Positions 1,188-23,403 of a DNA stretch of 24,276 nucleotides are shown in pieces. The notes beneath the pieces are model-generated. The model had not been told where the DNA came from and ran no database searches. It saw only the letters and a program-made list of their open reading frames with translations. Source of the DNA: a virus; the IMG/VR virus record IMGVR_UViG_3300011430_000040, positions 1 to 24,276 of that record; one strand, 5' to 3'. Made by a program: the position numbers and the translations under genes. The first letter of the stretch is position 1, and every line of letters begins with the position of its first letter.

Positions 1188-2634
1188 ACCAGCAGCCGGA
1201 TTCTTCCTCGCGCCCGGACTGGGCAAGACCATCATCATCCTTATGATCTTCAAGATCTTGAAGGCTCTGGGGCTGGTGGACGAACTTCTAGTGATAGCCA
1301 AGCGACGCATCTGTTACGAGGTCTGGCCCAAGGAAATTCGCAAGTGGGACCGGACGTGTCACTTCAGTTACGCCATTGTCCACGGTCGCCACAAAGAGGA
1401 AGCCCTGTGGGCGAAGTGCGACATCCGCATCATGAACTACGACTCGATGGACTGGTTCAAGCGGCAGAGAAAGTGGTTCCGTCGTGGCAAGCGTGTGATG
1501 CTAGCCTGTGATGAAAGCAGCAAGCTGCGACACACTCGCACGCTGCGCTTCAGATCACTGAAGAAGGTGCTGCCGCACTTCGTACGCCGCTACATCGCCA
1601 CAGGCTCACCCGCACCTAACGGGCTGATGGGAATCTTCGGGCAGATCTACGTGCTGGACTTCGGCGATCGGCTAGGCCAGTACATCACTCATTTCCGCAA
1701 TAAATACTTCACTCCATCTGGATACATGGGGTACAAGTGGAAATTGATGAAGGGCGCCGACAAGAAGATCTTCGAGCGCATAAAGCCTCTGGTCATTCGC
1801 TACGGCAATGACGAGTTAGATCTGCCGCCGCTGACACCACTATTCAGGAAGGTGAAGCTGCCGCCAAAAGCGCGTGAGATCTACGACGAGATGGAGCGCG
1901 AGTTCATAGTACGACTAGAGAACGACGACATCGTAGCGGCGAATGCTGCTGTCGCCAGCACCAAGTTACGACAGATGGCCAATGGAGGCGTATTCTACAA
2001 TGAACGATCTAAAGGGTACCGACTCATTCACGATGCGAAGGTTGAGAACCTTGTTGACCTACTCGAAGAGCTCAATGGAGAACCTGCGCTAGTTGCCTAC
2101 GAATACAAGCACGACATTGAACGAATCAAGAAGTACCTCAAAAAGCATGCGCCACAATTCAAAGACGCACCTTTCGTCGGTGGGCATACCAAGGACAAAG
2201 AACTGAGGAAGCTGTTACGTAAATGGGACAAGGGTGAGATCCCGGTGATGTTCGGCAACCCCGCCAGCATTGCGCACGGCTTGAATCTGCAAGGCAAGGG
2301 CGGTATCGTAATCTTCTTTTCGCTAACTTGGAATCTGGAAGATTACGAGCAGTTCATTCAGCGTGTCTGGCGTCAGGGCCAGAAGCGCAGGGTCTTGGTC
2401 TATCACATCGTCGCCAAGAATACGGTCGATGATGCTATCCTGTTGGCGCTAGCCAGCAAGGATCGAACACAGAAAGCATTACTCAACGCAATGGAGCACC
2501 ACTATGGAGTTCACACCCACCACCGACGAAGAGCTGAAAGACATTCGGCGACGCGCGAGAAAGCGGGGAGACGCCAAGCACGCCGCGAAAGAAGAACGCA
2601 AAAATGGTCGCGGCGAAAAGAAGCTGCGGCTTAA
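1090..2634 (+). CDS. SNF2-family DEAD/DEAH-like helicase/ATPase
   Basis: This 514-residue protein is a phage SNF2-like superfamily 2 ATPase. Motifs in order are a Q-motif-like KRYQ (20-23), Walker A APGLGKT (41-47), motif II DESS (141-144, where DEAH would be), motif III TGSPAPN (171-177), motif V NPASIAHGLNLQG (390-402) and motif VI QRVWRQGQKRRV (424-435). It should remodel or translocate on DNA during replication or recombination, probably with the two nucleases directly upstream. GGGAG at 1076-1080 sits nine bases before ATG 1090. The Q-motif is coded inside the overlap with the VRR-NUC gene, so the overlap is real. From about residue 471 the C-terminus becomes Arg/His-rich low-complexity sequence, exactly where the next gene overlaps it, and may be an overprinted tail. 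Confidence 0.9.
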   Translation: MSHSVVRKPSGTFKRRFKPKRYQYASVKFGVSRPAAGFFLAPGLGKTIIILMIFKILKALGLVDELLVIAKRRICYEVWPKEIRKWDRTCHFSYAIVHGRHKEEALWAKCDIRIMNYDSMDWFKRQRKWFRRGKRVMLACDESSKLRHTRTLRFRSLKKVLPHFVRRYIATGSPAPNGLMGIFGQIYVLDFGDRLGQYITHFRNKYFTPSGYMGYKWKLMKGADKKIFERIKPLVIRYGNDELDLPPLTPLFRKVKLPPKAREIYDEMEREFIVRLENDDIVAANAAVASTKLRQMANGGVFYNERSKGYRLIHDAKVENLVDLLEELNGEPALVAYEYKHDIERIKKYLKKHAPQFKDAPFVGGHTKDKELRKLLRKWDKGEIPVMFGNPASIAHGLNLQGKGGIVIFFSLTWNLEDYEQFIQRVWRQGQKRRVLVYHIVAKNTVDDAILLALASKDRTQKALLNAMEHHYGVHTHHRRRAERHSATREKAGRRQARRERRTQKWSRRKEAAA

Positions 2635-3529
2635 GGGCGATGCTCTTCGTTATGCGCTCGAGAAACAGCAGGACTTCCATGTCTATGGCCGTCACCTATT
2701 CGAGCGCTTCATCGAGTTCGTCAAGGAGAACGAAGGGCCGAAGCCTCGGTACCATTCGTATCTCAAGCGCGATGCGGCAGATGGCAAGTTCTGCTTTGAC
2801 ATACAGTCGGCGCTATCCCGCATGGCGTGGCAGCAGCTCAGCAACTTGATCCACGTAGCGGTCACAAGTGGCGAACGACCCATCGGTATCGCCACCCGCA
2901 ACTGGTCGGAAGCATTCCACTTCGCCCTTCACTGCCTGCACTTGGCGCTGAAGGTGAGGGAGAAGAAGGGCGCATTCAAGCTGACGGACTTGGATGTGTT
3001 GGATGATTGGCCCGTCGATGAACGCAAACGTCCCACGAAGGAGGACAGAAAGATGTCGAACAAAGAACTCGAGGCCCTCGAAGCCAAGAAGGATGAGGAC
3101 GAAGACGAGGACGATGAAAGCGAGGATGAGGGTAGCGAGGACGAGGACGAGGAGGACGAGGACGAGGAAGACGAAAAGCCCAAGAAACGGAAGGGCAAGG
3201 GCTTCGGCAAGTCCAAACCGAAAGCTCGTGACGACGAGGACGAAGAGGAAGATGAGGAGGAAGAGAAAGTGAGCAAGCGCAAGTCGAAGGAAAAGGGCGG
3301 AAAGGAGAAGACCAGCAAGAAGGTCGACTTGAGCGACAGCTCAGTCATCTCCCGCATCGGCACCCGTGATAAAGGCGGCAAGAAGACAACGTTCCTCGAA
3401 ATGATTCCCAAGAAGGGGATCAAGTACAAGGAGCTGGCTGCCAAGGCGAAGGACGGAGGTATTCCGTCAGGCAAGGTGAAGCCGTGGCTGAAGGCTTTCA
3501 TCAAGTACGAGTACATCAAGGTCTCGTAA
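2504..3529 (+). CDS. Unidentified protein with long Asp/Glu tract and basic flanks
   Basis: This 341-residue protein has three parts: a basic N-terminus (about 10-45) leading into a globular-looking segment (50-170), a highly charged middle with nearly pure Asp/Glu runs (197-225 and 243-255) interleaved with Lys/Arg-rich stretches, and a compact C-terminus (about 275-341). I recognise no domain. Acidic tracts of this kind occur in DNA mimics, histone-like chaperones and single-stranded DNA-binding protein tails, but none can be assigned here. GGAG at 2493-2496 lies seven bases before ATG 2504. It overlaps the helicase by 131 bases. A second, stronger Shine-Dalgarno (AAGGAGG, 3038-3044) precedes in-frame Met184, so a shorter 158-residue product is possible. 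A terminator follows the gene. Confidence 0.8.
   Translation: MEFTPTTDEELKDIRRRARKRGDAKHAAKEERKNGRGEKKLRLKGDALRYALEKQQDFHVYGRHLFERFIEFVKENEGPKPRYHSYLKRDAADGKFCFDIQSALSRMAWQQLSNLIHVAVTSGERPIGIATRNWSEAFHFALHCLHLALKVREKKGAFKLTDLDVLDDWPVDERKRPTKEDRKMSNKELEALEAKKDEDEDEDDESEDEGSEDEDEEDEDEEDEKPKKRKGKGFGKSKPKARDDEDEEEDEEEEKVSKRKSKEKGGKEKTSKKVDLSDSSVISRIGTRDKGGKKTTFLEMIPKKGIKYKELAAKAKDGGIPSGKVKPWLKAFIKYEYIKVS
3038..3055 (+). promoter_or_regulatory. Internal Shine-Dalgarno and candidate second start in the acidic-protein gene
   Basis: AAGGAGG at 3038-3044 is followed eight bases later by an in-frame ATG at 3053. This is a better ribosome binding site than the one at the gene's own start. Initiation here would give a 158-residue protein containing the acidic tract and the C-terminal domain but lacking the N-terminal half. 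The alternative is that the match is chance within a purine-rich stretch of coding sequence. Confidence 0.45.
3092..3268 (+). repeat. Low-complexity GAN-codon repeat tract
   Basis: Runs of GAC, GAG, GAT and GAA codons encode the Asp/Glu tracts, so the plus strand is strongly purine-biased here with imperfect trinucleotide repetition. Such a tract could change length by slippage. The complementary strand therefore reads as a serine-rich open frame, which is an artefact. Confidence 0.7.
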
Positions 3530-4831: not shown

Positions 4832-5637
4832 AAGCCCGCATCGTGATACCTACACGCGCAAGGCCCGAAGTTAAGACCTTCTATAACCTGCCGAAGGAAA
4901 TTCAGAAGCGCACAGTCCTCGTCATCAGGCCAGATGAAGAGTGGTTGTACGAGGCAATCCCATGCAAGAAGATCATGCTGGACAAAGGAGTGGAGGGCCT
5001 GAGTCCTACGCGACAGTGGATCCTCGACAACATCGACGACCGCTACGTCATCCAGCTGGACGACGACTTCAGTTCGTACAGCTTTAAGCCAGACATGCGT
5101 CAGTGGAAACTCATCAAAGCTACGCCTCGTCAGGTTGTGGAGATGTTTGAACTGGTAGATTTCTGGCTGCGAAAGTGCGTTGTCCACGCTGGTATCATGG
5201 ATCGAGTCCGGGCCGCGCAGCCAAGCAAGTCTGGCGAAGAGTACTCCGAGAATACTCTGTGCATGCAGTTCCTCGGCTACGACCAGAAGATTCTGCAAGA
5301 GGAGGGCGTACGCTTCGACAGAGTGAGGCTGGCGCAAGACAAGGACGTGTGCCTTCAGCTTCTGGAGCGCGGCTACGGTAACCGTGTATCGAAGCGGTTC
5401 TCGTACAACTGCTCCGGCACGGATACGACTGGAGGCTGCGCCGTATATCGGACAGAGAAGCTGCGTATCAAGCAGGCTAAGCTTCTGGCCCGTCTTCATC
5501 CCGGTATCGTGACGCAGATTCAGAAGACCGTGAAGAAACATGGCGAGACTATCACGCGCATGAAGAATCGCGTGAGCTGGAAGCTCGCCTTCTGTTCAAG
5601 AATAAAGGATCGAGTACTACCTGAGGAGGATGACTGA
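4828..5637 (+). CDS. GT-A fold glycosyltransferase, candidate DNA-base glycosyltransferase
   Basis: This 269-residue protein has GT-A/GT2-like features: an N-terminal nucleotide-binding strand IVIPTRAR (5-12), a second strand TVLVIRPDEEW (29-39), SPTRQWIL (59-66) and the metal-binding IQLDDDF with Asp78-80. A later segment with GYDQ, FDRV and QDKDVCLQLLERGYG fits the acidic catalytic region. It resembles the glycosyltransferases described next to base-oxidation or base-modification genes in phages (the TET-associated type), though no TET/JBP dioxygenase is visible here. Its place between the hypermodification protein and the TS-like enzyme suggests that hydroxymethyluracil in DNA is the acceptor. 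GGAGG at 4815-4819 precedes ATG 4828, which overlaps the upstream stop. The fold is confident; the acceptor is inferred. Confidence 0.7.
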   Translation: MKARIVIPTRARPEVKTFYNLPKEIQKRTVLVIRPDEEWLYEAIPCKKIMLDKGVEGLSPTRQWILDNIDDRYVIQLDDDFSSYSFKPDMRQWKLIKATPRQVVEMFELVDFWLRKCVVHAGIMDRVRAAQPSKSGEEYSENTLCMQFLGYDQKILQEEGVRFDRVRLAQDKDVCLQLLERGYGNRVSKRFSYNCSGTDTTGGCAVYRTEKLRIKQAKLLARLHPGIVTQIQKTVKKHGETITRMKNRVSWKLAFCSRIKDRVLPEEDD

Positions 5638-5638
5638 A

Positions 5639-6679
5639 ATGATCGGACACATATTGGCTCGTAACGTCAACGACGCATTCGAGCGGCTGAAAGAACTGGT
5701 GACCGCTGACTATCAAGATCAATGGCGTTACATTGCGCCTCGTGGTCAGCCTACGATGGAGTACAAAGGAGCGTTTATCACGGAGTACATTTACCCAGAC
5801 GAACGGGTTCTCTTTGATCAAGCCCGTGACGCCAACCCGTTCTTTCACTTTTTCGAAGCGCTGTGGATTCTGGCGGGAAGACGTGACTTATTCTTCCTGA
5901 CGCAGTTCCTTCCACGCATGGCCGACTTCAGCGATGACGGCAAAGTCTTGCACGGAGCCTACGGATACCGCATGCGATTTCATTTCGATGGTGACGCAAG
6001 CACAGACTGGAATGGGGCCAGTCGTCTTGATCAGATCATTACGGTCATCAACATTCTACGCGGTGACAGAGATACGCGGCAGGCCGTCATTGGCATCTGG
6101 GATCCATCAAGTGATCTTGGCAGAAAGACCAAGGACCTGCCGTGCAATGATCTGGTATTCTTCAAGGTCCGTGATGACAAGCTGAACATGACCGTCTGTT
6201 GCCGCAGCAACGACGCTATTCTAGGAGCTTACGGTGCGAACGCTGTACACTTCAGCTTTCTGCAGGAGCTCGTAGCCCGCATGGTCGGTGTCAGGCTTGG
6301 TACGTACACGCAGATTAGCGATTCATTCCACATCTATCTGGACGAACCGTCATGGCTCCGGGCCAAGGCTTTACCTGCGGCTGACCTGTATCGCGAACAA
6401 AGAGTCAAACCGTATCCGCTTGCCAATGGAACGATGGACGTGGCGGCATGGCTCGCTCAGCTCGACTGCTTCTTTGCTGGGACGATTTGCGAGTACGACA
6501 CGCCAGACCCGTTCTTTGCCGAGGTCGTCAGCCCATTGTGGGCCGCATGGCTACGATGGAGCAGCAAGATCGATACGAAGGTGCAACGCATTGATAACGC
6601 TTTGCGATTCGTAGAGCAATGCAAGGCTGAAGACTGGAGCTTGGCCTGTGCCCGCTGGCTCGAGCGGAGACGCCCATGA
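5639..6679 (+). CDS. Thymidylate synthase-fold protein, probable dUMP hydroxymethylase
   Basis: This 346-residue TS-family enzyme has catalytic Cys169 (DLPCN), the phosphate-binding RSND (189-192), GAYGAN with Asn201, and HIY (231-233). Cysteine-to-arginine spacing equals that of E. coli ThyA. Asn201 sits where ThyA has Asn177, the residue that favours dUMP over dCMP; dCMP hydroxymethylases carry Asp. The GAYGAN form, one residue longer than the ThyA loop, is that of the phage clade which includes dUMP hydroxymethylases. With a hypermodification protein and a glycosyltransferase beside it, 5-hydroxymethyl-dUMP is the likelier product, but ordinary dTMP synthesis cannot be excluded. I prefer ATG 5639, nine bases after GGAGG (5625-5629); ATG 5630 would have no spacer. 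It ends in an ATGA overlap with the HD gene. Confidence 0.85.
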   Translation: MIGHILARNVNDAFERLKELVTADYQDQWRYIAPRGQPTMEYKGAFITEYIYPDERVLFDQARDANPFFHFFEALWILAGRRDLFFLTQFLPRMADFSDDGKVLHGAYGYRMRFHFDGDASTDWNGASRLDQIITVINILRGDRDTRQAVIGIWDPSSDLGRKTKDLPCNDLVFFKVRDDKLNMTVCCRSNDAILGAYGANAVHFSFLQELVARMVGVRLGTYTQISDSFHIYLDEPSWLRAKALPAADLYREQRVKPYPLANGTMDVAAWLAQLDCFFAGTICEYDTPDPFFAEVVSPLWAAWLRWSSKIDTKVQRIDNALRFVEQCKAEDWSLACARWLERRRP

Positions 6680-13928: not shown

Positions 13929-15612
13929 TGTTGTAACCTCTGAACACCGTCACTGATTCCGCCACGTGCGGAGCATCCCACGAAATCTCAATGCTATCGC
14001 TATCAAGCCGGGCCAGCGACATCCAACTGACCATTTCAACATCTTCTGGATCCACCGTTACGCCTAGCGCGGTATCAATGGACATGCGCTCGACCGTCGG
14101 ACTGATTGTCTGTGGCGCACTGACTCGGCGATAGAAGATCGTACCATCCTTCAACTTGATACGAATGTCGCGCCTGTGCACGCCACCTTCGGCATACGAT
14201 ACCAGCCCGGCATACTCGAAGTCGACATTCGTAGCAGCACTACCGATGGTGACGACCACAATCAGATCATCCGTGAAGGTCGGTACCCACATTCCTTTGA
14301 ACCTGCCCTTGCGTGCGAACAGGAACTTTCTAAAGTAGTCAACATCAGCACGTGATAGAAGCATCCAGCGATACCCGAAAATTTGATACGGAATAAGAGC
14401 TTCGTCGACAGTTTCAATGAGACCGATCTGACCATCTACATCGACAGCCTTTCGCTCATACCCAACAGACGGATCATCGTTACGCCCGTCCGGTGGATCG
14501 ACCAGCACAGGGTAAGTACGATAAATCACCGATTCCGTAGCAGCAGTGTACGTCGTTCCTTTGTCACACCGGAACGACGCTACGCCGTACCCGTAGTTCC
14601 GGAAGAACGCCGACAACTGGAAGGGCGACTCAAGGCTGGCAAGCCTTGCCGGATAAACCTTTGTGCCCGGTCCCCACTCGTTGACCGTCGGTGTCGTAGT
14701 CGCAACGTCGTTCGCATTGACTGCGGTAATTTCCAGCGCCTCGTGGTTGCTATCGTCATGCGCAATCAGCATGATAAGTTCACCGACAGTGAACGACTTG
14801 GTTGCTGTGCTAACTGGGATGGTAGTCACACCATCTGCCAGTGTCGTCATAAGTCTCGCAACGTCGGGCCATACTGGCAGCGCCCAAAGTCGAGCGCCCC
14901 AGTTGTACAGAGCATTCTCGAAAATGCGGCGCTGCTGACCCTCGATGTCCACCGTGAATTCGAAGAATTGGCGCGGATTTATGCGCAGTTGACGACGCTG
15001 CTCCTTGGCATTGTATGAAATCATCGCATCCGTTTGCCACTCCAAACGCTCACGAATTCCGTTAGCCCAGTTCGGCGTCCATCGCCACGCTATCACCCGC
15101 GTGCCCGTTACGTCCATTTCGTAATCACGATTATCAAAGTCAAACGTAATGACTGCGTCAATCGTTGCCGGTCCATCCGCACTTGCCTGCAAGATGTACG
15201 TAAGTTCCTGCAGCGGCGCGAACACGGTCGGTGGTCCAGCTACAGGACTGACGACTACCAGCCCATCACCGTTCGTAATGATGATATCATTGAGCGTGCG
15301 ATTTACGAAGAACGCGTTGAAGATGTAGAACGGAACCTCTTGTGAACTGACCACCGCGCCCAGATCCAGCTCAGCAAATTGGATATGAATGTGATTATAC
15401 CAGTGCAAGAAGCCGAACATCGGCGACTCGAACCCGGTGTGCGTATTCTCTGGCTCATCAACCGGCTGCGTATCAGTCGACGTTCCAAAGAATGCGGACG
15501 AAATATCATCCGCAAGATTGAGAACTGGCGGTACGTTATTGCCGATCGCAGGGTTGGTGTAGGCCGTGAAGATCGCAAACCCTGTCTCCAGAAAGCCGGT
15601 GATGACGGCCAT
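13918..15612 (-). CDS. Minor tail / virion structural protein
   Basis: This 564-residue beta-rich protein lies between the two paralogous structural proteins and the BR0599-like hub protein, so it is almost certainly part of the distal tail. Recognisable stretches are RRIFENALYNWGARLWALPVW, YFRKFLFARKGRFKGMWVPTF and a C-terminal SWDAPHVAESVTVFRG. I recall similar segments in tail proteins of other siphoviruses but cannot attach a named family. ATG 15612 shares one base with the upstream stop (TAATG), indicating coupled translation. Its length and position are compatible with a distal tail or hub protein. Confidence 0.75.
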   Translation of the reverse strand: MAVITGFLETGFAIFTAYTNPAIGNNVPPVLNLADDISSAFFGTSTDTQPVDEPENTHTGFESPMFGFLHWYNHIHIQFAELDLGAVVSSQEVPFYIFNAFFVNRTLNDIIITNGDGLVVVSPVAGPPTVFAPLQELTYILQASADGPATIDAVITFDFDNRDYEMDVTGTRVIAWRWTPNWANGIRERLEWQTDAMISYNAKEQRRQLRINPRQFFEFTVDIEGQQRRIFENALYNWGARLWALPVWPDVARLMTTLADGVTTIPVSTATKSFTVGELIMLIAHDDSNHEALEITAVNANDVATTTPTVNEWGPGTKVYPARLASLESPFQLSAFFRNYGYGVASFRCDKGTTYTAATESVIYRTYPVLVDPPDGRNDDPSVGYERKAVDVDGQIGLIETVDEALIPYQIFGYRWMLLSRADVDYFRKFLFARKGRFKGMWVPTFTDDLIVVVTIGSAATNVDFEYAGLVSYAEGGVHRRDIRIKLKDGTIFYRRVSAPQTISPTVERMSIDTALGVTVDPEDVEMVSWMSLARLDSDSIEISWDAPHVAESVTVFRGYNSDV

Positions 15613-16526
15613 TACGGAATCCTGAAGGCGTATCCGTAGTACCCGCTACTTTCATCCACCGAAAGGCTACCTTGATTGAAGATGTCAGAACGACGAACCA
15701 ATGGAAAGACTATCCAGTCGTCACCGCCAATAGAGATGATCTCGCCCGGCGTCAAGTTATTCAAGCTAATGGCACGTAGATTCGGGATTCTGCCAATCGG
15801 ACTACGCTGGCTGCTGGCCCTATTCACAAAGTACGTGAGCGGAGCAAGGTGGTTCTGCAAATTCCACAGCTGATACCCGCGATATTGGAAGGGTGAGTGC
15901 AGGCCAGCGCTACGATAGCTTCCTGTCGCACGGTTAGGATTACCGACGTCCGTACTAGCCGACGTAACCATCTGCCAGTTGTTAGTCTTAGCATCGTAAT
16001 CGCACCAGACATGAGCATCGAATTCATTGACGCACTTCGAATCACAAATTGCCTGATGAAGCCCGAAGTCTGGAAGATCTCGGCTCGAAGTCGAAACATC
16101 CCACACAACGCCATCAACGTAGACTCCGCCCGTGTAGGCTCCGTGCTTGACAAGCTCGCCAAACGAGAAGTTGCGGTAATGACCCGCCGTCATCTCCAGA
16201 CTGACATGCAGATACTCCGCACTAGTTTCGTCGCCAGAAAAGAAGTGATAGGCTGTGTATGGCCCGACTCCAATCAGCATCACCAACGTCATGCCGGAGT
16301 TGTTCGTCTGTGCGTCGAACGCAGCAGCCGCGTTGTAAGTAATGGCCCCCCTGAAGAACAACTCGTTGGCATCAGTATTGACGCCCACGACGACGGTGTC
16401 CTTTCGGAATACTCGGCCGACAGTTGCCGGGCTCACCGTCCAGCCATTGGCAACGGCGAACGTCTCGAGCTTGTCGATCAAGTCTTCCGGGTCGTTAGCC
16501 GTACCGGTTTCGTAGTCTAGCGCCAC
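15612..16526 (-). CDS. Virion structural protein, paralogue of the upstream gene (copy B)
   Basis: This 304-residue protein starts MALDYETGTANDPEDLIDKL, matching the GTATDHEDLYNDL start of the protein coded just before it. Both also share a tyrosine- and tryptophan-rich middle and a C-terminus with GGDDW(I/L)IV-type sequence followed by F/Y-x-YA(F/I)R. The two are therefore tandem paralogues with the same fold. Position after the tape measure points to a tail or tail-tip structural role. The start is GTG 16526, with AGGAGAG upstream. Its stop overlaps the next gene's ATG by one base. No function can be given beyond structural. Confidence 0.75.
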   Translation of the reverse strand: MALDYETGTANDPEDLIDKLETFAVANGWTVSPATVGRVFRKDTVVVGVNTDANELFFRGAITYNAAAAFDAQTNNSGMTLVMLIGVGPYTAYHFFSGDETSAEYLHVSLEMTAGHYRNFSFGELVKHGAYTGGVYVDGVVWDVSTSSRDLPDFGLHQAICDSKCVNEFDAHVWCDYDAKTNNWQMVTSASTDVGNPNRATGSYRSAGLHSPFQYRGYQLWNLQNHLAPLTYFVNRASSQRSPIGRIPNLRAISLNNLTPGEIISIGGDDWIVFPLVRRSDIFNQGSLSVDESSGYYGYAFRIP

Positions 16527-16536
16527 TGCACTCTCC

Positions 16537-17481
16537 TCAGGTCAATCGGATGGCCGCGTAATGAAAGCGCGACGTACGGAAGATGTTCTGTACGATCAGA
16601 TAATCATCGCCACCGAAGTCGATGGTATCCTCGCTCGCTGCACCAAAGCCCGGTACTGCAAAGGCTCCGTCAAGTTCACCGTAGAAATCGAATGACGGAT
16701 CCTCGCCCATCAGTATTAGCGGAAACATTGTCAACGAACCATCAACGTTGTCTCGCATCTCACGCCAGCGAGCAAACGTTTCAGTCGTGATTCCTTCCGG
16801 TATAAAGAACGAGGCATTATACGGCCACATGTAGTTTGAAGTGGACTCTGGTGTCTCGCTTCCGCTATTGTTGAAGAAGTTCGCGACGTATCGCCATACG
16901 CCAGCCGGATCCAAGAACTGCGATGCGTAGTTGATATTCGGTACCGAGCCACTCTGCAACCGACCCGGGTCATAAAAGTTCCGAATGTCGGGCGTCGTTT
17001 CAGACCACCGGGTATTGGCGATCTGCGGTGACGAACGATAGTACGGCTGCGGCCACTGGCCGGGAGTTCCATATGGCAACATCTTACCAAGATACGACGC
17101 CGTGTAGACCGTCGACACTTTCGTAACGATGATCACACGCTGCCCGTTGGCAATGAACCAATATGGGATCGAAGTATCCCACAACGGATGATACCCGATA
17201 GTCGACATTCCGGGCTGTGTCTGGAAATCCACTAGCGCACTGTATGCACGGAACATCCATGCAGACAAAGCGAAGGAGTCCGTGCCCGCATTCTCTACGA
17301 ACCCGAAGCCGACATGAATCTCTTCCGTAGTAGTGAGTCCGGGCGCTACGAAGATGGAGCGTGTCGCATCATCGTCAAGAAGCGTCCAGTCTGGGCCTGT
17401 CGGCCCGGCCGTCTGAAGCCATGCCACAAGATCATTGTAGAGATCTTCGTGGTCAGTCGCTGTACCGATTAGAACTGGCAT
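16537..17481 (-). CDS. Virion structural protein, paralogue of the downstream gene (copy A)
   Basis: This 314-residue protein begins MPVLIGTATDHEDLYNDLVAW and ends IDFGGDDYLIVQNIF then FHYAAIRLT, both mirrored in the next protein. The middle is rich in aromatic residues, with PYWFIANGQRVIIVTK and an NYMWPYN segment, as in many tail surface proteins. It is the first gene after the tape measure, the usual place for distal tail proteins. ATG 17481 has GAGGG four bases upstream. Gene duplication followed by divergence is the simplest account of the pair. Confidence 0.75.
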   Translation of the reverse strand: MPVLIGTATDHEDLYNDLVAWLQTAGPTGPDWTLLDDDATRSIFVAPGLTTTEEIHVGFGFVENAGTDSFALSAWMFRAYSALVDFQTQPGMSTIGYHPLWDTSIPYWFIANGQRVIIVTKVSTVYTASYLGKMLPYGTPGQWPQPYYRSSPQIANTRWSETTPDIRNFYDPGRLQSGSVPNINYASQFLDPAGVWRYVANFFNNSGSETPESTSNYMWPYNASFFIPEGITTETFARWREMRDNVDGSLTMFPLILMGEDPSFDFYGELDGAFAVPGFGAASEDTIDFGGDDYLIVQNIFRTSRFHYAAIRLT

Positions 17482-17488
17482 GTTGCCC

Positions 17489-19804
17489 TCATGGTGCGAT
17501 TAGCCTACGTATTCCCTGCGCATTGCGCTGGATAACATTCATGATCGACTTCTCGCCGCTCGGTGAACCGATGGCGCTCGTAACTAATTGCGGATCCAGA
17601 ACGTTGATAATACGAACTCCACCACCTGACGGTGACGTACTGCCGTTCTGTCCTCCAGCATTCAGCCCGCCCTCGGCGAATCGCGGATACCCAGTCTTAA
17701 ACTGGCGAACTCTTGGTGTGAAGAACCCATCGTTCATCGCTTCCAAGAATTCTTTGGCGCCCGGCTGGCGTACAACTGATTGACGCACGACAAACTCGCC
17801 CTTGCTTAACCACGCCAGATTACTGTCGCTCGTACCGGTCCCTTGCCCGCCAACCTCGCCACCTTCGGCGAAGCCTGTACCGCCAGCCGCACCACCACCG
17901 AACGCGCGCAGGAGCGCGAGCGTCGCCTGCTTAGCAATGATCTCTGCAGCTAGGTCCGCAATCGCCTGCGCGATACTGCGGAATACTCCCTTAATCACAT
18001 CGCCAGCATCCTCGAACTTGTCGAGATTCTTCAGCACACTACTGATACCCTGCTCGATACCTTCCACAGCGGCCTGACGAAACTGAATAGATGCGTCGGT
18101 GGCTGCTTTCTGTGTTGCCTGAAGTTGCTCGATAGCGAGTGTGTACTGCTCAACACCAGCGACAGCCTCCGTTCCAATAGCCGTAGCTGCCTTTTGCAAT
18201 TCGACATTGATTGCCTGTAACTGAGGAATGCGCTGCGCTTCAAGCGCCAAAATCTGCTGCTCAGCTTGGAACTGTGCAATGACGCCAGCCTGCGCATTAA
18301 TGTTGATACGCTCGCGCGCGTCATCAAGCGCTTGCATGGCTTGATCAAACTGCGTCTTCAATTCTTCCAGGTTAAACGAAGCTCGCGATGACGTAGTAAA
18401 CCTGTCGATTATTCGTTGCCGATCAGCATCGGCTGCCTGCACAACTTCCAGCAGCTTCGCAATCTCAGCGGTATCCTTGGCCAGATTGCGCTCGAAGGCT
18501 TCTTGCCGCTTACCCTCCGTATCCGCAAGCTGCGTCTCGATGTCGAACAATCTTTGAGCTGCGGACTCACGCTGGTCTGCCAACTTCTTCTCTTCGGCTG
18601 CTTGCTTGGCACGCTCACGCTCAAGCTCAGACTCACGCTTCTTGCGCGCGGCTAGCTCCTCGCCAGACTCCACATCCTCTGGTGCTCCACCACGAACAAT
18701 CGGCTTTATGTCTAGCTCGATCTCCTTCTTATTCGCTTCCTGCACTAGTTTGTCGAATTCACCGAATGCCTCTTCGAACCCTGCCTTCAGTATGTCCCCT
18801 GTCTCACCGAACGCATCAATCAGAATGCTTCCAGCTCGTCTAAAGTCTCTCTGCAGGACTGCCTGTATCGCTGCAATGTTCGCAGCCAGCCCTCGGCCAA
18901 TTACCTGTAGGACCGTACTGATGACGGTCTCGGCAATCTTGAATAGTTGAATGACGACACGAAGAACGCGTCCTACCTCTTGGCCGAACGTCTTCATTGC
19001 GTCAACGCCTTCCCCCTCTGTCGCTTCCTTGAACCCGTCCATCGCCCCCTTGACGGACGGTAGCAGTCCGCTGATAAACTGGAGGGCCAGCCCGCGTACC
19101 TGATTCCTTATCTCGGTAAAGCTGTCGTTGACATTCTCAGCCAGCAGTGCGGCTTCCTGCGTGACGATGAGACCCATGCGCTCGGCCTTCTCGCGCACGG
19201 CATCGAAGCCTTCGGTCCCTAGCTGATTCAGCAGTGGGATGAGTTGCGCGCCAGCCTTACCGAAGATATCGTAGGCGAGTTTGGTCTTCTGTGCTCCGTC
19301 CCTGATCTTGCTCAACCGATCAGCGATGATGGCGAATTGTTGCCCTGTGTCCTTTCCAGCGAAGTCCTCTTTGGCCAACCCGAGCGCAGCAAAGGATCGC
19401 TCTAGTTCTTTGTTGCCCTCAGCGAGCTTACCTGTATTGACGGCCAGCTTGATAAGTCCTTTGTCAAGCTGATCTACCTCGACATCTGCTGTGCTGGCCG
19501 CTACTCGCAGAACAGACAAGCTCTCAGTGCCAGCGCCCGTCTTCTGTGCGGCCTTACCTATGGCGTCGGCGTAGTCAACCGCTTCTTTCGTCAACCTGAT
19601 AAAGCTGAGACCGCCAACAGCGGCGGTCACCTTGGAAATCAGTCCGCGAACTCCACCAAAGGATGCAGTCAGGCTTGCGAATGCGTTCTTACTGCGCAGT
19701 CCTTGCTTCGTGGCTTCGTCACCAATCTTCTTGAGCGCGTCGGTTACCTCCTTAATGCCTTCGGCGGTTAGACGAACTCGTACGTCTGGTTTACCGTTCG
19801 CCAT
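17489..19804 (-). CDS. Tail tape measure protein
   Basis: At 771 residues this is the longest late protein except the tip. It has a tape-measure N-terminus (AIGKAAQKTGAGTESL and YDIFGKAGAQLIPLLNQLG at 179-195), a hydrophobic helical section (about 280-320), a long charged coiled-coil stretch (about 375-560) and a Gly-rich C-terminus with FAEGGEV, WLSKGEFVVRQS and RFAEGG repeats. Tape measure length sets siphovirus tail length, and by the usual ratio this would give a tail of roughly 115 nm. It follows the frameshifted chaperone genes, and its ATG overlaps the end of the T region by 14 bases. AAGGAAGGG precedes the start. Confidence 0.93.
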   Translation of the reverse strand: MANGKPDVRVRLTAEGIKEVTDALKKIGDEATKQGLRSKNAFASLTASFGGVRGLISKVTAAVGGLSFIRLTKEAVDYADAIGKAAQKTGAGTESLSVLRVAASTADVEVDQLDKGLIKLAVNTGKLAEGNKELERSFAALGLAKEDFAGKDTGQQFAIIADRLSKIRDGAQKTKLAYDIFGKAGAQLIPLLNQLGTEGFDAVREKAERMGLIVTQEAALLAENVNDSFTEIRNQVRGLALQFISGLLPSVKGAMDGFKEATEGEGVDAMKTFGQEVGRVLRVVIQLFKIAETVISTVLQVIGRGLAANIAAIQAVLQRDFRRAGSILIDAFGETGDILKAGFEEAFGEFDKLVQEANKKEIELDIKPIVRGGAPEDVESGEELAARKKRESELERERAKQAAEEKKLADQRESAAQRLFDIETQLADTEGKRQEAFERNLAKDTAEIAKLLEVVQAADADRQRIIDRFTTSSRASFNLEELKTQFDQAMQALDDARERININAQAGVIAQFQAEQQILALEAQRIPQLQAINVELQKAATAIGTEAVAGVEQYTLAIEQLQATQKAATDASIQFRQAAVEGIEQGISSVLKNLDKFEDAGDVIKGVFRSIAQAIADLAAEIIAKQATLALLRAFGGGAAGGTGFAEGGEVGGQGTGTSDSNLAWLSKGEFVVRQSVVRQPGAKEFLEAMNDGFFTPRVRQFKTGYPRFAEGGLNAGGQNGSTSPSGGGVRIINVLDPQLVTSAIGSPSGEKSIMNVIQRNAQGIRRLIAP

Positions 19805-20138
19805 CTTTCCCTTCCTTCAATATGCGAGGAATTGCGGGAGGCTTTCCGGGCTTCTTCTTGTGAGGAGCCAACGTCGCCCAGAGCATAAGCCTCTGGTTGT
19901 AAGAGCGTGCCGCGTCCTCACGGATGAGGTGAAGATAGCGTAACAGAGCTTCGCGTAACGGCCAACACAAAACCTCCTGCGCTGCTCTGTAGTCATAGTC
20001 TGCGACGACCCTGACAAGATGATTCCAATCCGCGTAATCTAGTGCGCCACGTTCTGGCTTGAAGACTGTGCCGGGTCGTCCCTTCCCTGTTGGCCGGAAG
20101 AGCTCAGGGAAGTCCTCAAAGATACGACCCCTTGTTCG
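19791..20138 (-). CDS. Tail assembly chaperone T region, made as a G-T fusion by -1 frameshift
   Basis: After the TTTTTTC heptamer the -1 frame stays open for 115 residues to a TAA at 19793-19791. It reads RTRGRIFEDFPEL, then YADWNHLVRVVADYDYRAAQ, then LREALLRYLHLIREDAARSY, and ends in a Lys/Pro-rich tail. This is protein-like sequence with no usable start codon of its own near the beginning. Fused to the first 119 residues of G it gives a 234-residue G-T protein, as in lambda, where both forms act as chaperones on the tape measure. Its end overlaps the tape measure start by 14 bases. Confidence 0.85.
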   Translation of the reverse strand, partial: RTRGRIFEDFPELFRPTGKGRPGTVFKPERGALDYADWNHLVRVVADYDYRAAQEVLCWPLREALLRYLHLIREDAARSYNQRLMLWATLAPHKKKPGKPPAIPRILKEGKDGER

Positions 20139-20494
20139 AAAAAATCCATCACCAGACGCACAGCAAATGCAAACACTGTGCTCTTATCCTCCTTGTCAGT
20201 TAGCCCCTCAAGAAACTGGGCGAGCTGCTCCGACGATTCGGGTGACCAGTCAAGGTCCGTCCTTTCAGCGTCGATGAAGCAGCTCGCCAGTACCGGGATC
20301 AGCGCTTGCGACTGAATGAGCTGATTGAGAAGCCTGTTGGCAAACTCTTCGGCACTTTCTTCCGCGTGCTTGATGATCTCGCTGATGCCAGACTTCCGAA
20401 TCTGATTCATCAAATGGAGATCGTGCCTCACTGTTGAAGTGAGGACCTGACGTAGCTTTCGCCCGCCAACAGTAATCTCAATCGCTTTCGTCAT
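20039..20494 (-). CDS. Tail assembly chaperone G
   Basis: This 151-residue protein lies between tail tube and tape measure, the fixed place of the G chaperone. It is mostly helical after a short beta start (MTKAIEITVGGRKLRQVL), with an acidic centre (EESAEEFANRL, DAERTDLDW) and the RLVMDFFEQG segment that carries the slippery site at Phe118-Phe119. The residues after that are Ser/Gln-rich, as expected for a tail used only in the unshifted form. ATG 20494 is one base after the stop of the tail tube gene and has no strong Shine-Dalgarno, so it probably depends on coupled translation. Confidence 0.85.
   Translation of the reverse strand: MTKAIEITVGGRKLRQVLTSTVRHDLHLMNQIRKSGISEIIKHAEESAEEFANRLLNQLIQSQALIPVLASCFIDAERTDLDWSPESSEQLAQFLEGLTDKEDKSTVFAFAVRLVMDFFEQGVVSLRTSLSSSGQQGRDDPAQSSSQNVAH
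20138..20144 (-). promoter_or_regulatory. -1 programmed frameshift slippery heptamer TTTTTTC
   Basis: On the minus strand T-TTT-TTC lies in the right register for X-XXY-YYZ slippage: zero-frame codons GAT TTT TTC become TTT TTT in the -1 frame. The -1 frame is then open to 19791. A perfect 8-base-pair stem, CTTCCCTG (20112-20105) with CAGGGAAG (20089-20082), follows about 25 bases downstream, farther than a typical stimulatory structure. Confidence 0.8.
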
Positions 20495-20495
20495 G

Positions 20496-21290
20496 TCACA
20501 CCGCCAGTGGGTCGTACCGCTCGAGAACGTAGTTCGGCGTTGTCGGGTGGTTCACGCCATCGCTCTGTACAGCCATGCGCAGGCTGAAGTTGCCGAAGTC
20601 GTCACCAATAAACCCAAGTTCGCCGTCCGGGTTAATGGACACACGCCACGCACGCAGCCTGTAGTTCGGGCCACTAGCGTTGTCCGATTCGAAGTGCAGG
20701 AAGGCCTCGATCAGCGACTCATTGCCACCGTCAATCGTCTGAATCGTGGTGACCGTCGCTCGCGTGAAGTCGACCAGAAGATCTCCGGTGCCATCTGGTA
20801 TGGTTCCACCCGGAACAATGTACAGCAGCCCACGGATCAGATCCGCTGTATAGTCTGTCCCGAGCGTGTAGGTCGTTCCGGCTGGATCTGTCGTTACCAC
20901 GAGCGCGGCAATATTTCGACTACCGAGATCATAGTAACGGCCATGTTGAACATTGGCGATTGCCATGTCCGTCACGGCTACCGCCGACTGCGTTGCTTCG
21001 GCAACGTTGCCCATCATTGCCAGTGCGAGATTCTCCATCTCGAATTCGTCAAATACGCCCACAACCTCAATCGTGCGACGCGAAACTACGCGCTTGAGAA
21101 GCGGGGCCGATTCTTCCACGGCACTGAACTTTTCACGAACCTCGTCCGTGGTAGAAAGCCTGAGCTCTGTCACGTTACCGACAAAGCGCAAACTGCCTGA
21201 CGGTGCGTTATTCACGTACCGATCAAGCATCAGGGCTCCTCTCCCCAATACGAGATTGTCGCCGTTTGCAGCAAAAATTACCTGACTCAC
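20496..21290 (-). CDS. Major tail tube protein
   Basis: This 264-residue beta-rich protein begins GTG-Ser-Gln-Val with GGAGGA before it. It contains tube-type features: GSLRFVGNVTELRLSTTDE early on, a central segment with GTDYTADLIRGLLYIVPGG, and a C-terminal part with YRLRAWRVSINPDGELGFIG. Position between the tail terminator and the chaperone genes is the standard one for the tail tube subunit, which polymerises around the tape measure. It is long enough to include an inserted loop or Ig-like region at about 110-190, but I cannot be sure of a separate domain. Confidence 0.85.
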   Translation of the reverse strand: MSQVIFAANGDNLVLGRGALMLDRYVNNAPSGSLRFVGNVTELRLSTTDEVREKFSAVEESAPLLKRVVSRRTIEVVGVFDEFEMENLALAMMGNVAEATQSAVAVTDMAIANVQHGRYYDLGSRNIAALVVTTDPAGTTYTLGTDYTADLIRGLLYIVPGGTIPDGTGDLLVDFTRATVTTIQTIDGGNESLIEAFLHFESDNASGPNYRLRAWRVSINPDGELGFIGDDFGNFSLRMAVQSDGVNHPTTPNYVLERYDPLAV

Positions 21291-22440: not shown

Positions 22441-23403
22441 TCAGGTCATCGTCACGAGCAACGCATGCTGCCAGAGTCCATAGGCAACATTCCGCCACGT
22501 CTCGACGCCGTACCAGTGCTTGCGCTCCTTGAACTCCAGCTCACTGCCTTCCACGATCGCCTTCATTTCGACCGCCGTCTCTTCCTGTCGGATGAGGGGC
22601 TTGATCGCACTGTCGGCGCGGAAGATTGCGAACTTGTCAGTCCAGGTCAGGCGAGTATTCGCGACGTAGGACACGTCGAACCCGCCCGAACGCACGGCAG
22701 CCAGAGTTGTCTGCGATGCTCCGGGAGTGTCGTTCGGAACATACAGCGCTCGAGATGCGATGCTCCACAGCGACACCGGGCACATCACGAGGAACGCACG
22801 AGCATTCTCGTTCATCGGCTCGTTCTGATCATCCCTGAAAGCTGCCATGGCTGCAATGCCGGTCGTCACCGCCAGTTGAAACTCTTCAACCGAGGGGCTG
22901 GCCGCTGCCGCACCATGAACGATCGTTGGCAACGTCGAGATATCGACGGCGATATCGTTCGACTGGCTGGTAACATTCTCGCCTTCAACGTGGTCCGTGT
23001 CGAAGAAGAATTGCCCGTCGTAGCATACTGCCGCTTCGCCAGCAATTATCAGCGTGCTGAGCAATGACGCCCAGTGTGCAGTCGTTCGCTGGGCCATTTC
23101 ACGAACCCGAACCATGATCTGGCTCGTCTTGTCGCGACGCAGCTCATCGATGTCAACTTCGAGTGTTGCTTCGTAGAGCTTGTTGCGGATCGTGATCCCG
23201 TTCTCGCGAAAGCCTTTGGCCTCTCGACCACCGACCCACTCGCGCATAACGGGCGCTTGACCGAGCCACGGATATTCTTCCGATGGCTGGTTAGACTGGA
23301 AGAGATTCGAGATTGCGCCGATCCACGCAGCTCCCGGATCCTGTTCCAGAGTTTTGTAGTACGTACCAATGATGGCACGACTGGAAAGTCTCTGTGCACC
23401 CAT
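22441..23403 (-). CDS. Major capsid protein, Mu gpT type
   Basis: This 320-residue protein matches the Mu gpT-like major head subunit family, an HK97-fold capsid lineage. Landmarks are EYPWLGQAPVMREWVGGRE (about 43-61), GITIRNKLYEATLEVDIDELR and CYDGQFFFDTDHVEGEN in the middle, and FLVMCPVSL then WTDKFAIFRADSAIKPLIRQ. Some relatives of this group are cleaved and some are not; no cleavage site is evident here. AAGGAGG lies before ATG 23403. The cement protein gene is directly upstream and a terminator-like hairpin is downstream. Confidence 0.92.
   Translation of the reverse strand: MGAQRLSSRAIIGTYYKTLEQDPGAAWIGAISNLFQSNQPSEEYPWLGQAPVMREWVGGREAKGFRENGITIRNKLYEATLEVDIDELRRDKTSQIMVRVREMAQRTTAHWASLLSTLIIAGEAAVCYDGQFFFDTDHVEGENVTSQSNDIAVDISTLPTIVHGAAAASPSVEEFQLAVTTGIAAMAAFRDDQNEPMNENARAFLVMCPVSLWSIASRALYVPNDTPGASQTTLAAVRSGGFDVSYVANTRLTWTDKFAIFRADSAIKPLIRQEETAVEMKAIVEGSELEFKERKHWYGVETWRNVAYGLWQHALLVTMT

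Follow-up and report, generated by a model that had tools for sequence, protein, structure and literature searches.

In phage lambda, as described in PMC5009743, the tape measure gene is immediately preceded by a pair of overlapping ORFs, and a -1 shift close to the end of the first, G, gives rise to gpG and gpGT. The tape measure protein is bound by gpG and by the G portion of gpGT, the tail tube subunit by T. The same source describes the G-T frameshift as widely conserved despite low sequence similarity across phages. An equivalent G-T arrangement has been predicted in Burkholderia phages KL1 and AH2, in a paper stating that many but not all such shift sites have an RNA structure downstream (PMC3483164), and a frameshift prediction tool has been trained mainly on the shifts of tail assembly chaperones (PMC10274946). 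Among the papers searched, none combined phage tail assembly frameshifting with the heptamer TTTTTTC.

We analyzed a virus record of 24,276 bases, hereafter the window, whose late genes run on the minus strand in the order capsid (Mu gpT-like), tail terminator, tail tube (phrog_807), G, tape measure and tail tip genes. The window shares with lambda a pair of overlapping ORFs immediately ahead of the tape measure gene and a -1 shift, here predicted, close to the end of G; very probably, this shift is a programmed -1 ribosomal frameshift like that of lambda G-T. Compared with lambda, which is known here by description, the window has TTTTTTC as its heptamer and a hairpin downstream, and its G and T proteins reach no Pfam cut-off and have no PHROG match at E 0.1. 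The same gene order and an annotated frameshift product are found in Casjensviridae and in the Stenotrophomonas and Xanthomonas phages Suzuki, Suso and HXX_Dennis. The records of Suso and HXX_Dennis, which have the same TTTTTTC as the window, note both the frameshift product and the slippery sequence, and the record of Stenotrophomonas phage Suzuki notes a frameshift product at the same place. The window nevertheless differs from these three phages in that its G and T could not be linked to theirs at E 0.01.

The G-T locus and its slip site

G and T are placed between the genes for the tail tube and tape measure proteins. The gene for the major tail (tube) protein (264 aa, 20496-21290, minus strand; phrog_807, E 5e-49) ends 1 base before G, a 151-aa ORF at 20039-20494 on the minus strand that its position and architecture mark as a putative 0-frame tail assembly chaperone. 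T, a region of 115 aa plus stop in the -1 frame of the same strand (19791-20138), is followed by the tape measure gene (771 aa, 17489-19804, minus strand), which matches PHROG tail length tape measure families (e.g., phrog_8462, E 8e-31) and starts inside the end of T. With T left out, the gap from G to the tape measure gene amounts to 234 bases, while the 11 other junctions among the chosen late ORFs range from -62 to 60 bases.

The heptamer TTTTTTC lies at 20144-20138 on the minus strand in the context GA[T TTT TTC], with its first T being the third base of a G codon, so that it matches X_XXY_YYZ and reads T_TTT_TTC in G; the exact register claimed in the original prediction was thus confirmed. 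This is the sole copy of TTTTTTC on either strand of the window, though the count is no evidence in itself because 2.6 copies are expected by chance. Within G, it is the only in-register XXXYYYZ, and in the 11 late ORFs, in-register XXXYYYZ heptamers of any kind occur at 3 of 4259 codon positions, TTTTTTC being one of them.

The -1 frame has its last stop before the heptamer at 20186 and its next one at 19793, leaving 115 codons open past the heptamer, and T, with its stop at 19793-19791, overlaps the tape measure ORF (start 19804) by 14 bases. The open frame of 115 residues ending just inside the tape measure gene was therefore found as predicted. When the -1 frame was entered from 2940 positions inside ten other late ORFs, none remained open for 115 codons and the longest reached 94, a null that is only a guide since most of T extends beyond G. 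The lack of a start codon near the beginning of T was likewise borne out: there is no ATG, GTG or TTG among the first 56 codons after the heptamer, and the first possible start in the frame is the TTG at 19970, the 57th codon. Codon usage in the window gave T the top score of the frames tested on its own stretch; the score was below those of all 154 true-gene windows and was equaled or exceeded by 146 of 770 wrong-frame windows.

Other parts of the window were recorded alongside. Two adjacent ORFs of 314 and 304 aa at 15612-17481 each match phrog_687 (structural protein) and are probably a tandem pair of paralogs. An ORF of 341 aa at 2504-3529 contains long acidic (D/E) and lysine-rich stretches, and a 349-aa ORF at 5630-6679 presumably resembles thymidylate synthase. 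The late module is mosaic in its nearest phage relatives: for the capsid (22441-23403), these are Pseudomonas phage KT1 and Sinorhizobium phage phi3LM21, among the best 25 of 214 phage records; for the tail tube (20496-21290), they are Casjensviridae, among the taxonomy-checked records from the best 40 of 256; and the tape measure is nearest to other phages than either of these.

Homologs of G and T and selection on the T frame

Two Pfam matches of G below the cut-off, Imm48 (E 0.005) and DUF6179 (E 0.1), were taken as chance, and the single Rfam match was discarded as far below its gathering score. A tblastn search of the window's G and T against 50,697 phage records gave no match at E 0.1, and direct protein searches retrieved two contigs only, both with identical G and T; one of these differed from the window at 10 positions in 5967 bases compared, none of them in G-T. 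Synteny yielded 40 G-T sets including that of the window, whose G and T had no link to any other at E 0.01. No homology could be established when profiles of the window's G and T were compared with three other G-T clusters and the L111/L102/L052 group. The best match of window G to the Casjensviridae cluster had a probability of 7.7%, and we do not claim this link although the match scored above all 100 shuffles. Structure models predicted for G and T from single sequences were of low quality, with mean pLDDT of 43 and 45, respectively.

Relatives were found by a scan with a small tail-tube alignment, the alignments A1 and A2 being too varied to scan with. We then searched for homologs of the window's G and T in the open frames of the other 112 of 116 loci. 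T matched five uncultured virus contigs from IMG/VR, L273 (E 3e-20), L274 (1e-17), L275 and L276 (both 2e-17) and L272 (9e-16), and G matched the same five at E 4e-17 to 2e-12; beyond these contigs, neither had a match in those frames even at E 10. As L274, L275 and L276 are at least 99.95% identical, the five contigs represent three distinct lineages: L273, L274/L275/L276 and L272. The T proteins of L273 and L274 had no matches in the phage records either, and comparisons of G and T from L272-L274 with known families gave weak, chance-level matches only.

The three lineages share the arrangement of the window. In each of them, T is in the -1 frame relative to G and shares 14 bases with the following ORF, a homolog of the window's tape measure protein (E 1e-51 to 6e-80), and a run of Ts and a hairpin are found at the same place. 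Identity of the relatives' T to that of the window is 36-39%, with 28 invariant columns; the alignment extends from the first codons of T, and the invariant residues begin at codon 9. The slip site differs in detail: the window has six Ts, L273 and L274-L276 have seven (TTTTTTT at the same place, read T_TTT_TTT), and L272 has G_TTT_TTT_CCC, a run of six that contains no perfect in-register heptamer. Besides the window, two of the three lineages thus retain a perfect heptamer. In L272 (4102-4112), the run is retained in the register G_TTT_TTT_C, T is still in the -1 frame and the hairpin is still present. Conceivably, there is a separate tail-chaperone lineage in which a simple stretch of Us decoded by a single tRNA (Phe), together with a downstream hairpin, suffices for -1 slippage even where the heptamer register has been lost, as in L272 (G_UUU_UUU_C), via single-tRNA slippage or with a contribution of transcriptional slippage, but we regard this as rather unlikely.

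We compared L272 and L274 for selection on T, using the alignment columns from 37 on, nearly all of which are past the G stop (about five L274 codons still overlap G). Over these 81 codons, pN/pS was 0.28, with 17, 8 and 26 differences at codon positions 1, 2 and 3, respectively. In the longest ungapped block, the T frame had a pN/pS of 0.25, in comparison with 0.79 and 2.75 in the other two frames, both of which contain stops. For pairs that involve the window, which are near saturation, pN/pS across all of T was 0.61-0.74. Between L272 and L274, the first 20 codons, in which T and G overlap, gave pN/pS of 1.0 for T and 5.5 for the frame of the G tail, and so neither of the two was seen to be constrained there. 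The comparison shows purifying selection in the T frame and argues strongly for translation of the main part of T.

Downstream hairpin and related tape measure loci

The original prediction named an 8-bp stem about 25 bases downstream of the slip site. Such a stem exists on the minus strand, with CTTCCCTG (20105-20112) beginning 25 nt after the heptamer and pairing with CAGGGAAG (20082-20089), but it is not conserved in the relatives: in the consensus fold of the four sequences, that part pairs otherwise, and the stem is specific to the window. The stem is enclosed by an outer one of 7 bp that had been overlooked, formed by GGGTCGT (20124-20130, minus strand; 7 nt after the heptamer) and ACGACCC (20073-20079, minus strand), and it is this outer stem that is kept in the relatives. 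In L273, L274 and L272, the stems are perfect, measure 9, 8 and 7 bp, respectively, start 5-6 nt after the T run and differ in part of their sequence. Elsewhere in the same sequences, a stem that long is found at 3% (window), 0.5% (L273), 1.8% (L274) and 5% (L272) of places.

On the four-sequence alignment, 90.6% of the cells of the outer helix are paired, in comparison with 25-56% when the helix is slid, and four of the eight pairs show changes on both sides. Shuffled alignments reached the outer helix in 2 of 500 cases for the covariation score, in 17 of 500 for the number of both-sided pairs and in 32 of 500 for pair types, in a sample of four sequences from which the structure itself was derived and in which the L272 and L274 stems are shared by descent. 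The RNAalifold covariation term was small (-0.44). In terms of folding energy, the window hairpin alone is no more stable than its composition predicts (z of -1.0 and -1.3), and extending the stretch by 13 nt upstream and 20 nt downstream shifted the preference to another fold. The z-scores in the relatives were -3.1 for L273, -2.2 for L272 and -1.5 for L274, and the L274 stretch ranked at 42% by folding energy within its locus. On the sequence comparisons, the downstream hairpin is probably the stimulatory element of the shift.

We surveyed 42 tape measure ORFs related to that of the window, each preceded by 600 nt or more of sequence. Of these, 30 had a G-T candidate containing a shifty heptamer, as did 91 of 1565 other long ORFs, taken from the same loci and including overlapping and near-duplicate ORFs; with any XXXYYYZ accepted, the numbers were 32 of 42 and 191 of 1565. 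Several of the 91 positives among the controls are annotated tape measure genes missed by the search (e.g., in L012-L018, L025 and L026). The remaining 12 of the 42 had no shifty candidate. In a broader set of 50 related tape measure ORFs, 33 had at least one G-T candidate, or 31 after setting aside L101 and L225 with their unlikely heptamers. Among the 17 ORFs without one, 8 start no more than 3 bases from the start of the locus and the other 9, in L212, L170, L155, L226, L217, L092, L216, L224 and L227, had upstream sequence in which no XXXYYYZ G-T candidate was found. The heptamer TTTTTTC is also used in the candidates of L020, L102, L192, L194, L219 and L238. After removal of the near-duplicates L204, L251 and L252, 15 of the 36 relatives with a candidate had a stem of 7 bp or more that begins 4-10 nt downstream, with 1.5 expected.

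Proposed mechanism and alternative explanations

Under the proposed mechanism, most ribosomes would terminate at the end of G and produce the 151-aa G protein, while a minority would slip back one base on T_TTT_TTC and produce a 234-aa G-T fusion, with the hairpin 7 nt downstream helping the slippage. If the products behave as in lambda, the tape measure protein would be bound by G and by the G portion of the fusion, the T part would recruit the tail tube subunit, and the ratio of the G and G-T products may matter for tail assembly. The position of the locus, the register, the open -1 frame, the homologous T in the -1 frame of three lineages, the selection on the T frame and the hairpin with compensatory changes 5-7 nt downstream all fit the G-T model. 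The central claim of the original prediction, a programmed -1 frameshift giving a G-T tail chaperone, gains support from the register, the T homology, the selection and the hairpin; slippage itself, its rate, the chaperone role and the binding by G and G-T are parts of the model that we infer.

The slip site being a homopolymer (six Ts in the window and L272, seven in L273 and L274-L276), RNA polymerase could slip on the T run and place part of the mRNA in the T frame, yielding the fusion without ribosomal slippage, and the retention of the run but not of the heptamer register in L272 is in line with this. A run of six or seven is, however, short for polymerase slippage, and a hairpin located 5-7 nt downstream and carrying compensatory changes, which that mechanism does not need, is what ribosomal shifting would lead one to expect; we regard the transcriptional explanation as highly improbable. 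A homopolymer at the junction is also where a sequencing or assembly error could have split one continuous gene. To this we give practically no credence: two additional contigs carry an identical G-T, one of them while departing from the window at 10 other positions among 5967 compared, and the -1 offset is seen again in the three homologous lineages and beside 30 of the 42 related tape measure genes.

The weak codon usage of T in the window would suit a T that is translated from its own start or not translated at all. A start of its own is hard to reconcile with the lack of ATG, GTG and TTG in the first 56 codons of a region that nevertheless aligns with its relatives from the first codons and has invariant residues from codon 9, and lack of translation is contradicted by the selection acting in the T frame; in either form, we find this explanation extremely improbable. 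The programmed ribosomal frameshift is the reading we retain, and T would accordingly be a gene missed by start-codon-based gene calling.

Judged on its sequence, the G-T tail chaperone frameshift of the window is an ordinary one, and its G and T belong to a family new to the libraries searched. The frameshift is of a familiar type and leaves the understanding of the mechanism unchanged; what it adds to a conserved recoding event is a G and T family without library matches, together with a hairpin backed by covariation.
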